From assembly GCF_900102615.1 (NCBI RefSeq), contig NZ_FMYV01000003.1, forward strand, positions 186,001-250,000: a stretch of DNA of 64,000 nt, written 5' to 3'. The notes below the pieces were generated by a model that worked only from the letters and a program-made list of their open reading frames with translations, was not told the origin of the DNA and searched no databases. Both the position numbers and the translations under genes were made by a program. The DNA comes from Geotoga petraea (GTDB lineage Bacteria > Thermotogota > Thermotogae > Petrotogales > Petrotogaceae). Positions 38,580 to 43,544 of this stretch are shown in pieces (position 1 is the stretch's first letter; every line of letters starts with the position of its first letter).

Positions 38580-38888
38580 ATCCTTATGCTATAATTTTGT
38601 AAATTAATGAGGCGGTGATGGGTGAAAAAGTTTTATTGTAGTATCTATATTAATTATATCATTTGTTTTTGTAAGCTTTTAAAAAACATATAAATTTCTA
38701 AGAATTAAATATATTTTAAAGATCCCAGAAAAAATTTTGCCATTAATTTTTGTTCAATGTAGATAGTTTGGTATAGAACTATTTTTAAATCTAATAATGG
38801 TATTGCTTTTTTAATTAACTAATAAGAAATATTAACGAAATCTTTAGTTATAAAAGTATTGTTATTATGAGTTTAGAAAAATAAATAA
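38580..38888. other. Divergent intergenic region, no gene
   Basis: About 310 bases of AT-rich DNA between the divergent amidohydrolase operon and the thiamine riboswitch. It must hold both promoters, but I see no unambiguous -35/-10 pair. No repeat or small gene is supported. Confidence 0.5.
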
Positions 38889-38978
38889 GTGAACCAGGGG
38901 AGCCATATAGGCTGAGAGGGCAAGATGCCGACCCTAAAACCTGATCCGGGTAATGCCGGCGTAGGAAGCGAAATCAAA
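38889..38978 (+). ncRNA. TPP (thi-box) riboswitch
   Basis: Contains the conserved thi-box elements in order: GGGGAGCC, GGCTGAGAGGGCAAGATGCC, CTGATCCGGGTAATGCCGGC and GTAGGAAGCGA. It binds thiamine pyrophosphate and precedes thiB-thiP. It is followed directly by a hairpin terminator, so control is most likely by premature termination when TPP is bound. Confidence 0.97.
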
Positions 38979-38983
38979 TATAT

Positions 38984-39019
38984 AAACTCTCACCTATATG
39001 ATAGCGTGAGAGTTTTTTT
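38984..39019 (+). terminator. Riboswitch-controlled terminator of thiB-thiP
   Basis: AAACTCTCAC / GTGAGAGTTT with a 12-base loop and seven T residues, between the thi-box and thiB. Confidence 0.9.
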
Positions 39020-39051: not shown

Positions 39052-40020
39052 ATGAGAAGGATTTTGTTTTTAGCTATGTTGATATTTAGTTTGGTTTCTT
39101 TCAGTGCTCTGACTGTTTATACTTACGAGAGTATGGGATGGATAGAAGATTCTGTTATTTCTGAATTTGAAGATATGTACAGTGTTGATGTGAAAGTCGT
39201 AAAACTTGGTGATGGTGGGAACGTGTTGTCCAGAATAAAGTTAGAAAAAAGGAATCCTAAAGCAGATGTTGTTATAGGGTTAGACCAAAGTTTGGTCGTA
39301 GAAGCAGTTAAGAACGATTTGTTAATTTCTTATAAACCGTTAAACGCGTCAAAAATTGAAAATCAAGATATTGTTTTCAATCAAAATTATTTTGTAACTC
39401 CATATGACTATGGAGCTATAGCGATTATATACGACCCTGAAAGGCTTGATACAACGCCAAAGACTTTTGAAGATTTGACAAAAATGGATAAATCTTTGAT
39501 AATTCAAGATCCAAGAAGTTCAAGCACAGGCCAAGCGTTTTTGTTATGGACAATCGCAATTTATGGAGAAGACTGGAAAGAGTTTTGGAAAGAATTAAAA
39601 CCGGCTATTTTAACCGTAACAACTGGATGGACAGATTCATTTTCAAAATTTGAAGCTGGAGAAGCCCCAATGATGGTTAGCTACGCAACAGATGGAGCTT
39701 ATTCTTATGAATATTATGAAAGTACCAAATACAAAGCTTTAATACCAGAAGAAGGTGGATATGTTCAAGTAGAAGGGGCAGGCATAGTAAAAGGAACAAA
39801 AAATGAAGAGTTAGCAAAAAGATTTATTGAATTTCTTTTAATGGATGAATTTCAAAAAAAGGTCCCTCTGAACCAATGGATGTTTCCAGTAACTAATGTA
39901 GAACTACCAGAATCTTATGAATATGCTTTAAAACCTGAAAAAATATTGACCATAGAATCAGAAGAAATTGCAAATAATTTAAATAAATGGTTGAATGAAT
40001 GGGAAGAACTAATGTATTAA
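39052..40020 (+). CDS. thiB: Thiamine ABC transporter substrate-binding protein
   Basis: Secreted binding protein of 322 aa for thiamine or thiamine phosphates. Signal peptide MRRILFLAMLIFSLVSFS, then LTVYTYESMGWIEDSVISEFE, VVIGLDQSLVVEA and PRSSSTGQAFLLWTI, as in ThiB/TbpA. It lies directly after the TPP riboswitch. AGGAGG is nine bases before the ATG. Its stop overlaps the thiP start. Confidence 0.93.
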   Translation: MRRILFLAMLIFSLVSFSALTVYTYESMGWIEDSVISEFEDMYSVDVKVVKLGDGGNVLSRIKLEKRNPKADVVIGLDQSLVVEAVKNDLLISYKPLNASKIENQDIVFNQNYFVTPYDYGAIAIIYDPERLDTTPKTFEDLTKMDKSLIIQDPRSSSTGQAFLLWTIAIYGEDWKEFWKELKPAILTVTTGWTDSFSKFEAGEAPMMVSYATDGAYSYEYYESTKYKALIPEEGGYVQVEGAGIVKGTKNEELAKRFIEFLLMDEFQKKVPLNQWMFPVTNVELPESYEYALKPEKILTIESEEIANNLNKWLNEWEELMY

Positions 40021-41555
40021 TGAACAAGAAAAAAATAATTCCCATAATTTATATTGCATTATGGGTTACTCCTTTCATTTTTTTATTCAGAGATTTTTTT
40101 GAACTTAATAGTTTCACCCTCATAATGGATTCGCGCTTGTCGCGAATCCTTGGGGTTACTTTTTTACAATCAATTCTATCCACTTTAATATCATTAGCAA
40201 TAGCTATAATACCTTCTTATTACATATATAAAAAGAAAAATTTAATATCAAATATTTTGGAAGGAAGTATATTCATCCCTTTCTTCTTTCCTCCAGTTTC
40301 AATGGTCCTGGCTTTTAGTTTATTGTATTCAAACGCAGGATTGTTTTCAAAACTCGGGATCGATTTGAACATTTTATATACCATGAAAGCAATTGTTTTG
40401 GCACATGTTTTTTATAATTCTCCCATATTTGTAAAATACATAGGGGAAGCCTTGAGAAAGATTCCAAATGGAGTTGTCGAAGCCTCAAAAATAGATGGAG
40501 CCAGTAAAGTAAGAACATTTTTTTCAATAGAAGTCCCAATGATAATGCCGTCAATAATGAAAGCATTTTTTTTGGTGTTTTCTTACAGTTTTATGAGTTT
40601 TGCTGTAGTTTTAAACTTAGGTGGAATAAAATATTCAACTTTAGAAGTAGCTATTGCAAACACCTTGAGAGGGTCATTTGATTTCTCAAAAGCTTTGGGA
40701 TATGCATTGATTCAATTTGCAATATTATTTGTGTTGAATTACGTTATTTCAAAGATTGATATCCTTTCTTTTGAGGGAGACATTTCTCACCCTAAAAAAG
40801 TTTCTAAATTTGTAACGGGTACATCTATAATCTATTTGATATTTGAATTTTCAATAGTTTTTGTAGGAGTCTTTTCAGCATTTTTCAACTTTTTTGACAT
40901 GAAATTCGATATTTCAGGTTTTCTTAATTTGTTTTCGAAAGAGTTTAATAATAAATACCCAATAGTTGAATCTATATTCAATTCTCTTTTTGTAGCCCTC
41001 ATAGCAGCTACTTTGAGTATTGTTTTTACCTATATTATTTTAAAAAACTATACCAAATTTACAGATAGAGTTATTTTACCGTTTTTAGGTATTTCTTCTG
41101 CTTTTTTAGCTATGGGGTTGCTTTATATAAACATTTTATATGGAATTCCTTTTGTCATCCTTTTAATAATAGGGTTTATGATGATAACAATACCAATAAC
41201 CTACTCTTTTTTATTTCAACATGTTGTAGGGTTTAACAAGTCTCTTTTGGAAGCAGCAAGTATAGATGGAGCGAATAGATGGCAAAGTTTTTGGAACATA
41301 GAACTTCCGTTAATCCTTCCTTCTATGATCTCAGTATTTTTACAGATTTTTGCCATTATTTATGGTGAATTCACCATAACCTATACAATGCAGGTTAGGG
41401 ATTTTTTCCCTCTTGTAAGTGTGGTGAATTATTCTCTTTCTGCAAATAGACAATATTTAGAAGCAAATGCCTTAAGTGCTTTTAACATAGCCATTATAAT
41501 AATAATATTTGTTCTATCCAATAGAATAAAAAATAGATTTTATAAAACTCTTTAA
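40020..41555 (+). CDS. thiP: Thiamine ABC transporter permease (double-length)
   Basis: Fused two-domain permease of 511 aa with about twelve helices. Two EAA coupling loops are seen: VVEASKIDGASKVRTFFSIEVP (first half) and LLEAASIDGANRWQSFWNIELP (second half). The start ATG overlaps the thiB stop (TAATG); the frame open to 39999 is not needed. No thiQ ATPase follows, so the ATPase must be shared or encoded elsewhere. A GC-rich palindrome interrupts the start of the gene at 40127-40149. Confidence 0.92.
   Translation: MNKKKIIPIIYIALWVTPFIFLFRDFFELNSFTLIMDSRLSRILGVTFLQSILSTLISLAIAIIPSYYIYKKKNLISNILEGSIFIPFFFPPVSMVLAFSLLYSNAGLFSKLGIDLNILYTMKAIVLAHVFYNSPIFVKYIGEALRKIPNGVVEASKIDGASKVRTFFSIEVPMIMPSIMKAFFLVFSYSFMSFAVVLNLGGIKYSTLEVAIANTLRGSFDFSKALGYALIQFAILFVLNYVISKIDILSFEGDISHPKKVSKFVTGTSIIYLIFEFSIVFVGVFSAFFNFFDMKFDISGFLNLFSKEFNNKYPIVESIFNSLFVALIAATLSIVFTYIILKNYTKFTDRVILPFLGISSAFLAMGLLYINILYGIPFVILLIIGFMMITIPITYSFLFQHVVGFNKSLLEAASIDGANRWQSFWNIELPLILPSMISVFLQIFAIIYGEFTITYTMQVRDFFPLVSVVNYSLSANRQYLEANALSAFNIAIIIIIFVLSNRIKNRFYKTL
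40127..40149. repeat. GC-rich palindrome inside thiP
   Basis: GGATTCGCG-CTTGT-CGCGAATCC, a perfect 9-bp stem within the coding sequence (encoding MDSRLSRILG between the first two helices). Its base composition differs sharply from the AT-rich gene around it. The frame is kept. Confidence 0.6.
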
Positions 41556-42247: not shown

Positions 42248-43303
42248 TTATCTATCTTTTTTCTCTTGTTTTTTTAGATATCTTTCTGCTTTTCTTCTGA
42301 TTCTTTTGTAAACTCCTGAGAGACCCATAAGTTTTTTCATTTCAAGTACTGTATTTCTAACCTCTTCTCTTACCTGTTCAGTTCCTCTAACTATTATTTC
42401 TTCTACCATCCCGGATGTTTCATATTTTTGTCTTCTTTCTCTAAATGGGTCAAGGAAGTTGTTTAATGCTACTACTAATTTTTCTTTCACTTCAACATCA
42501 CCGACTTTACCCCTTCTGTATCTATCTTTTAAATCCTGAACTTCTTCTTTGTTTGGGTTGAATAAATCATGATAAATAAATACTGGATTTCCTTCGACTT
42601 TTCCTGGAATATCTGCTCTAATTCTATTAGGGTCTGTCTTCATTTTCATAACCATTTTTTTTACGGTATTGGCATCATCACTCAAAAAGATAGCATTGTT
42701 AGCACTTTTACTCATTTTTCTTTCACCATATATACCGATTAAAGCTGCCTCTTCTCCCTGTATAACTTTTGGAATTGGGAAAAGTTCACCATACAAACTA
42801 TTAAATCTTCTTGCTATTTCTCTGGCTATTTCTACGTGGGCTACGTTGTCCTTCCCAACAGGGACTAAATGGGATTTTACTCCTATAATATCTGCTGTTT
42901 GAAGAACTGGATATCCAAGTAAACCAAAAGGCATTTCAATGTTTGCGTCTCTCGCCATATCTTTTAAGCTTGGCATTCTTTCTAATCTTGCAACAGTTGT
43001 TAAGTTTTGCAAAAGTGTGTATAATTCATGTACTTCTGGAATAGCTGATTGAAGATAGAATTTTACATTTTCTGGTTCTATACCTGCAGATATTGCGTCC
43101 AAAACAAGACTTCTGGCATTTTCTTCTGATTTTTCAATATCTTCTTTTGTGTTTTTTGTTGTAAGCATATGTAAGTCAGCTATTATAAATATGCTGTCAT
43201 ACTCGTATTGATATTTAACCCTATTTTTTAATGTTCCAACATAATGTCCCAAATGCAATTTTCCGGTTGGCCTATCTCCAGTTAGAATTCTTTTCTTATC
43301 CAT
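42248..43303 (-). CDS. trpS: Tryptophanyl-tRNA synthetase
   Basis: Class I aminoacyl-tRNA synthetase of 351 aa that charges tRNA-Trp. The HIGH-type motif is KLHLGHYVG (residues 14-22) and the KMSKS loop is [10 protein letters not shown] (about 195). [12 protein letters not shown] and [15 protein letters not shown] are typical of bacterial TrpS. GAGGAGG is six bases before the ATG. The 5' leader encodes a Trp-rich peptide followed by alternative hairpins, so expression is very probably controlled by ribosome-mediated attenuation. Confidence 0.97.
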
Positions 43304-43347: not shown

Positions 43348-43442
43348 AAAAAAGCTTTCCTTTCGGAAAGCCCTTAAAAATTTAAGGGCATCCTGTATGG
43401 ATGCCCGATTATATTCATTTTTTAGGCATCCTTAAAGATGCC
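43348..43442 (-). promoter_or_regulatory. trpS attenuator (alternative hairpins and terminators)
   Basis: Minus-strand RNA segments: 1 GGCATC (43442-43437, starting in the third Trp codon), 2 GGATGCC (43431-43425), 3 GGGCATCC (43406-43399), 4 GGATGCCC (43393-43386). 1:2, 2:3 and 3:4 can each pair. 3:4 is followed by TTAAATTTTT and acts as a terminator; 2:3 is the antiterminator. A further pair GCCCTTAAA / TTTAAGGGC (43389-43370) and a second terminator GCTTTCC-GAAA-GGAAAGC plus T run (43371-43348) follow. Confidence 0.88.
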
Positions 43443-43485
43443 ACCACCATAATTTTTTATTTAATTGTTTTAATTGATTTTTCAT
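43432..43485 (-). CDS. trpS leader peptide with three tandem Trp codons
   Basis: ATG to TAA frame of 17 residues, MKNQLKQLNKKLWWWHL, with AAAGGATG nine bases before its ATG and a perfect promoter upstream. The three TGG codons are consecutive and lie exactly where a stalled ribosome would mask segment 1 and free segment 2 of the attenuator; the stop lies just before segment 2. This is the layout of the trpL leader of enteric trp operons, here ahead of trpS. Confidence 0.9.
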   Translation of the reverse strand: MKNQLKQLNKKLWWWHL

Positions 43486-43515
43486 CTTAACACATCCTTT
43501 TTCTGGTACAATTTT

Positions 43516-43544
43516 ATTATAGCTTGAAAGAATTTTATTGTCAA
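43516..43544 (-). promoter_or_regulatory. Consensus promoter of trpS
   Basis: TTGACA (43539-43544), 17-base spacer, TATAAT (43516-43521) on the minus strand; it would start a leader of about 205 bases before trpS. Confidence 0.9.

Follow-up and report, generated by a model that had tools for sequence, protein, structure and literature searches.

The window, meaning the whole stretch of 64,000 nucleotides of Geotoga petraea DNA analysed here, carries on its minus strand the gene trpS (42248-43303), coding for a tryptophan--tRNA ligase of 351 residues. The product is a full-length enzyme according to its match with TIGR00233 (296 bits, cut-off 177) and the gene is present as a single copy in the genome (one match). 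Its ATG lies at 43303, preceded by GAGGAGG at 43317-43311. Upstream of the gene, an element running from a promoter to a second terminator (43544-43350, minus strand) was read base by base. Its sigma-70 promoter (43516-43544) agrees with the consensus at 12 of 12 positions, with the -35 box TTGACA at 43544-43539, a 17-nt spacer and the -10 box TATAAT at 43521-43516. The ribosome site AAAGGA (43495-43500) was likewise read directly, 9 nt 5' of the ATG of a leader ORF encoding MKNQLKQLNKKLWWWHL (43432-43485). This ORF starts at 43485, contains three Trp codons among its 17, in a row at 43449-43441, and stops with TAA at 43434-43432. Elsewhere in the window, a TPP riboswitch on the plus strand (38886-38984) precedes ABC transporter binding-protein and permease genes (39052-41555) that are probably involved in thiamine uptake.

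The leader contains four segments followed by a second hairpin, all on the minus strand. Segment 1, GGCATC (43437-43442), starts at the second base of the third Trp codon and can be extended to GGCATCTT, which forms 8 pairs with segment 2. Segment 2, GGATGCC (43425-43431), stands immediately 3' of the stop codon. Two terminator-like hairpins occupy the DNA between the leader ORF and trpS. The arms of terminator 1 are segment 3, GGGCATCC (43399-43406, 5' arm), and segment 4, GGATGCCC (43386-43393, 3' arm). Its U-tract (TTAAATTTTT) is imperfect in the trpS leader of the window, whereas the related copies upstream of trpE, trpB and trpX possess a proper one. Terminator 2, or 5:6, consists of AAGGGCTTTCC-GAAA-GGAAAGCTTTT followed by T-rich DNA (43350-43375). 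The 3' end of segment 4 and the tail of terminator 1 together form a stretch, GCCCTTAA (43382-43389), that is the exact 8-bp complement of segment 5, TTAAGGGC (43370-43377), which overlaps the 5' arm of terminator 2. The anatomy of an attenuator is present, including the mutually exclusive pairings 1:2/3:4 and 2:3. The RNA that extends from the first Trp codon to the end of terminator 2 has a folding z-score of -5.1, and 0 of 200 shuffles were as stable. The promoter, leader peptide, segments 1-4, second terminator and trpS listed in the initial annotation of this DNA were thereby recovered base for base, and the coordinates bear out its placing of segment 1 inside the third Trp codon and of segment 2 right after the stop.

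Related leaders were sought by pattern and covariance-model searches. When up to 3 mismatches were allowed, the pattern TGGTGGTGGCAYCNNNAAGGNTGCC gave one match in the 2.17-Mb genome of the window and two in G011, a genome from another genus of the same family, Petrotogaceae. It was absent from all other genomes of the family searched, and the reversed control pattern had zero matches in the family genomes. The leader pattern was also sought in viral contigs and none was found there. The trpS product of G011 is 75% identical to that of the window, and its leader encodes MKYFYTKKMNNNINWWWHL with the segments and tandem hairpins arranged as in the window; WWWHL and all segments are kept amid diverged DNA. 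The second G011 copy, detected with the degenerate pattern, precedes a TrpX-like gene whose sole NCBIfam match is the tryptophan-transporter binding protein TrpX, at 220 bits and below the curated 390. In the window genome, a scan for TGGTGGTGG revealed a further copy, some 180 bp upstream of trpB. A covariance model built from these four leaders was run against 103 genomes of the phylum. Genus g6 contributed six genomes with clean matches, g2 and g3 three, and g8 two; the leaders among the model matches have consensus-like promoters and lie ahead of trpE in nine genomes and ahead of trpB in two. In total, 15 leaders spread over six genera of the family were found, upstream of trpS (2), trpB (3), the TrpX-like transporter gene (1) and trpE (9), so that all targets are Trp genes. 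All 15 leader peptides end in WWWHL, plus at most one residue.

Pairing between the segments is preserved throughout this set. With the register set by hand in the 15 leaders, all core cells are in standard pairs (1:2, 90/90; 2:3, 105/105; 3:4, 105/105; 300/300 overall). In genus g8, segments 2 (GGATGCC to AGGTGCT), 3 (GGCATCC to GGCACCT) and 4 (GGATGCC to AGGTGCC) are altered together. On a MAFFT alignment 99.2% of the 3:4 cells (119/120) are paired, with three pairs changed on both sides; none of 500 shuffles matched the paired fraction or the covariation score, and slid controls paired at 36-53%. The coordinated changes represent few independent events. Segment 1 is also constrained by the WWH codons and its conservation alone therefore proves little. 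The comparison with relatives that the initial annotation had proposed strongly supports its reading as a ribosome-mediated attenuator, since the related leaders keep both the Trp codons and the paired segments. The G011 trpS leader retains three Trp codons and all segments, and a leader lacking Trp codons or changed in segments 1-4 without pairing was seen in 0 of 15 cases. The location on trpS stands as it had been described but is not specific to this gene, as members of the family also carry the element ahead of trpE, trpB and trpX. These locations point to a family-wide Trp circuit, a putative small regulon of trpS, trpB, trpX and trpE. No trpE match was found in the window genome or in G011, and no trpB above cut-off in G011; the two organisms therefore look like Trp scavengers in which the attenuator was retained on the genes for uptake and charging and on trpB. 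G011, with neither trpE nor trpB above cut-off, yet has several TrpX-like genes, which suggests a Trp auxotroph dependent on uptake.

Other leaders were encountered during these searches. Weak model matches outside the family (E > 0.003) were chance hairpins or belonged to a second class of Trp leader, located on trpX in other Thermotogota families, with peptides of the type ..AYAYWWFRGxPSSxIPxxPLGT before the stop and a single terminator (L196-L198, L200-L202, L204-L206 and L209; also L141, L142 and L146). About 15 residues are conserved past their Trp codons, a conservation that could reflect RNA pairing within the ORF or a role of the nascent peptide. Further trpX leaders have the divergent peptides GWWHRGCPFQKF and YYFWWKALSKDS (L207, L148; L199, L143). 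In genus g7, one of two trpE copies (L183, G018:C1:1254860-1255400) is preceded by an unrelated leader, MKTLKNNWWWKIRVRR, downstream of which lie two tandem hairpins.

Judged on sequence comparison, the element in front of trpS is very probably a trpL-type ribosome-mediated attenuator that would set the expression of the gene by the supply of charged tRNA-Trp, combined with a putative 4:5 relay and an acquired synthetase under resident control, both considered below. When Trp-tRNA is ample, the ribosome at the leader stop would mask segment 2, and 3:4 would end transcription; with segment 4 occupied, terminator 2 would form too, as a back-up. When Trp-tRNA is scarce, a ribosome stalled at UGG UGG UGG would mask segment 1, 2:3 would pair before segment 4 is transcribed, and the free segment 4 would bind segment 5 and oppose terminator 2. 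RNA polymerase would then proceed into trpS and charging would be restored. In folding calculations with a ribosome masking the stop codon, 3:4 formed with a probability of 0.94 or more in all leaders, and of 1.00 in that of the window. Even when the ribosome occupies the Trp codons, 3:4 prevails over 2:3 at equilibrium in nearly all leaders, and antitermination must therefore be kinetic, with 2:3 forming first. In enteric leaders as well, the antiterminator is accepted to win by forming first.

Two other explanations dispense with starvation-induced stalling. The hairpins could be constitutive terminators that shield trpS from upstream transcription, the WWW ORF being incidental. The hairpins are indeed strong, and terminator-like sites also arise in shuffled DNA of the same composition, at about 1.3 per 2.5 kb, but the ORF is preceded by a consensus promoter and a ribosome site, and WWWHL and the alternative 2:3 pairing are conserved before four different Trp genes, which makes this explanation exceedingly improbable. 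Sensing of Trp by a T-box, by TRAP or by TnaC-like arrest in response to free Trp is hardly more credible and very unlikely, even if such sensors are generally known to control Trp genes in other bacteria. The absence of a T-box asserted in the initial annotation was upheld by a covariance-model search of the window and the trpS loci, and the Rfam search found no other known riboswitch on trpS and no family at gathering score. No run of spaced TRAP-type triplets is visible by eye, and the geometry, with segment 1 in the Trp codons and segment 2 after the stop, suits stalling upon starvation.

Within the attenuator reading, the role of terminator 2 has to be weighed. It is present in 15 of 15 leaders, and the 3' side of terminator 1 is complementary to part of it over 6-12 bp. 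The second terminator and the 4:5 stem linking the two, both noted in the initial annotation, hold in the relatives, where 4:5 recurs with different sequences; this recurrence makes it the most unusual part of the element. The partners are GCCCTTAA and TTAAGGGC in the trpS leader of the window, CCTCTTTTT and AAAAAGAGG in the trpB and trpX leaders, CCCTTTTTTAAT and ATTAAAAAAGGG in most trpE leaders and CCTTTTTTAT and ATAAAAAAGG in the g8 leaders. The match is exact over 8-12 bp in 14 leaders and beats shuffles in 14 of 15: of 500 dinucleotide shuffles, no more than 20 and usually 0 to 4 paired equally well, and for the window the count was 8 of 1000. When terminator 1 tails were swapped between leaders, they matched the terminator 2 of their own class best, with small exceptions (trpS and one trpE row). 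By folding, 2:3 imposed with segment 5 out gives 4:5 a probability of 0.88-1.00, while 5:6 forms in all leaders once 3:4 is imposed; in the window leader the values are 0.93 for 4:5 with 2:3 held and 0.91 for 5:6 with 3:4 held. Through the putative relay, a single stalled ribosome could disarm both terminators. It is alternatively possible, if somewhat doubtful, that a plain four-segment trpL attenuator is followed by an independent, leaky terminator 2 and that 4:5 has no function. At equilibrium, 14 of the 15 leaders prefer the 5:6 hairpin to 4:5, the exception being the window leader, in which 4:5 persists. The tails of terminator 1 are U-rich and the loops of terminator 2 A-rich, which favours chance pairing, and the 4:5 match of the G011 trpS leader is weak and not significant (6 bp, equalled in 114 of 1000 shuffles). 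Against a functionless 4:5 stand its exactness in the 14 leaders, the better fit of tails to their own class than to most others, and the maintenance of both terminators in all 15 leaders, although a terminator 2 that cannot be relieved would defeat control. Such a terminator would silence the gene unless leaky, which adds weight to the relay.

Upstream of trpS, the leader was found only in the two genera whose trpS is Chloroflexota-like and was probably acquired. Among the 21 family genomes, including that of the window, a close trpS occurs in G011 only; in 18 others the gene is a different trpS (36-48% identity), upstream of which neither a W-cluster ORF nor a terminator was found (18 loci). 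Thirty trpS upstream regions representing 28 further genera of the phylum contained no comparable leader, and the isolated W-containing ORFs remaining upstream of the scanned trpS genes look like chance. In the TrpRS tree, the enzymes of the two genera and of one MAG labelled Spirochaetales fall within a mainly Chloroflexota clade; those of the remaining family members group separately with full support, and well-supported branches force at least two changes. Most likely, the synthetase gene was acquired from a Chloroflexota-like source and put under the resident Trp attenuator of the family. For the attenuator itself, a resident trp leader is the most likely template, because the donor-like trpS upstream regions scanned have no such leader. 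Among the related trpS loci scanned, the one leader found was a distinct one in the Spirochaetales MAG (L080:1384-1580), whose trpS is 45% identical and whose own leader, ending in NRLWWWCIFMGKSRFP, has alternative hairpins and two terminator-like stems; it is possibly an independent trpS attenuator in another phylum. For the complete proposal there is about an even chance: a tandem-terminator Trp attenuator, common to trpE, trpB, trpX and trpS in one Thermotogota family, would relay the stalling decision from terminator 1 to terminator 2 through pairing of 4:5 in the loop or 5' arm of the latter, and would have been recruited onto a horizontally acquired synthetase gene. This would be a double terminator of natural design, with a single sensor governing two stop signals, and a case of an acquired housekeeping gene wired into a pre-existing RNA control of its host.

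The element resembles the ribosome-mediated attenuator of the Escherichia coli trp operon, trpL, in its tandem Trp codons, its short leader ORF with segment 1 overlapping the end, the exclusive 1:2/3:4 and 2:3 pairings and the terminator before a Trp gene. Unlike trpL, it is predicted to control trpS (trpB, trpX and trpE in relatives), has three Trp codons and possesses a second terminator with the potential 4:5 pairing. It has no detectable match to the Rfam trp-leader models: Trp_leader (presumably RF00513) gave none up to E = 10. The best match by bits, RF01692 Bacteroid-trp (Bacteroidete tryptophan peptide leader; 43349-43494, minus strand), was rejected because its 23.2 bits (E = 2.2) fall short of the gathering score, 49. 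The enteric his operon leader, with its six segments A-F, has the topology 1:2, 3:4, 5:6 versus 2:3, 4:5 that is predicted here. It differs in that here the codons are for Trp and not His, 3:4 is itself terminator-like, and in most leaders segment 5 lies in the loop of terminator 2 and not in its 5' arm. Attenuators of Streptomyces trpS genes, reportedly studied experimentally by Vecchione and Sello, also consist of a leader-peptide attenuator ahead of a tryptophanyl-tRNA synthetase gene. The novelty claimed in the initial annotation holds in part: no description of Trp attenuators in Thermotogota was found in the literature searched, though the survey of Lopatovskaya et al. (2010) may contain one, but trpL-type attenuation of trpS was already predicted in Streptomyces (Seliverstov et al. 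2005; PMC1262725). Two sources describe leader-peptide attenuation for Proteobacteria, Actinobacteria and some Firmicutes (PMC2965389, PMC1262725). The leaders found here would add Thermotogota to these, with a small Trp regulon of several genes. The Streptomyces case belongs to another phylum and concerns trpS2 of S. avermitilis (PMC1262725), whereas here the sole trpS is involved. The text consulted on that case does not mention tandem linked terminators (PMC1262725), which are present in the Petrotogaceae leaders.
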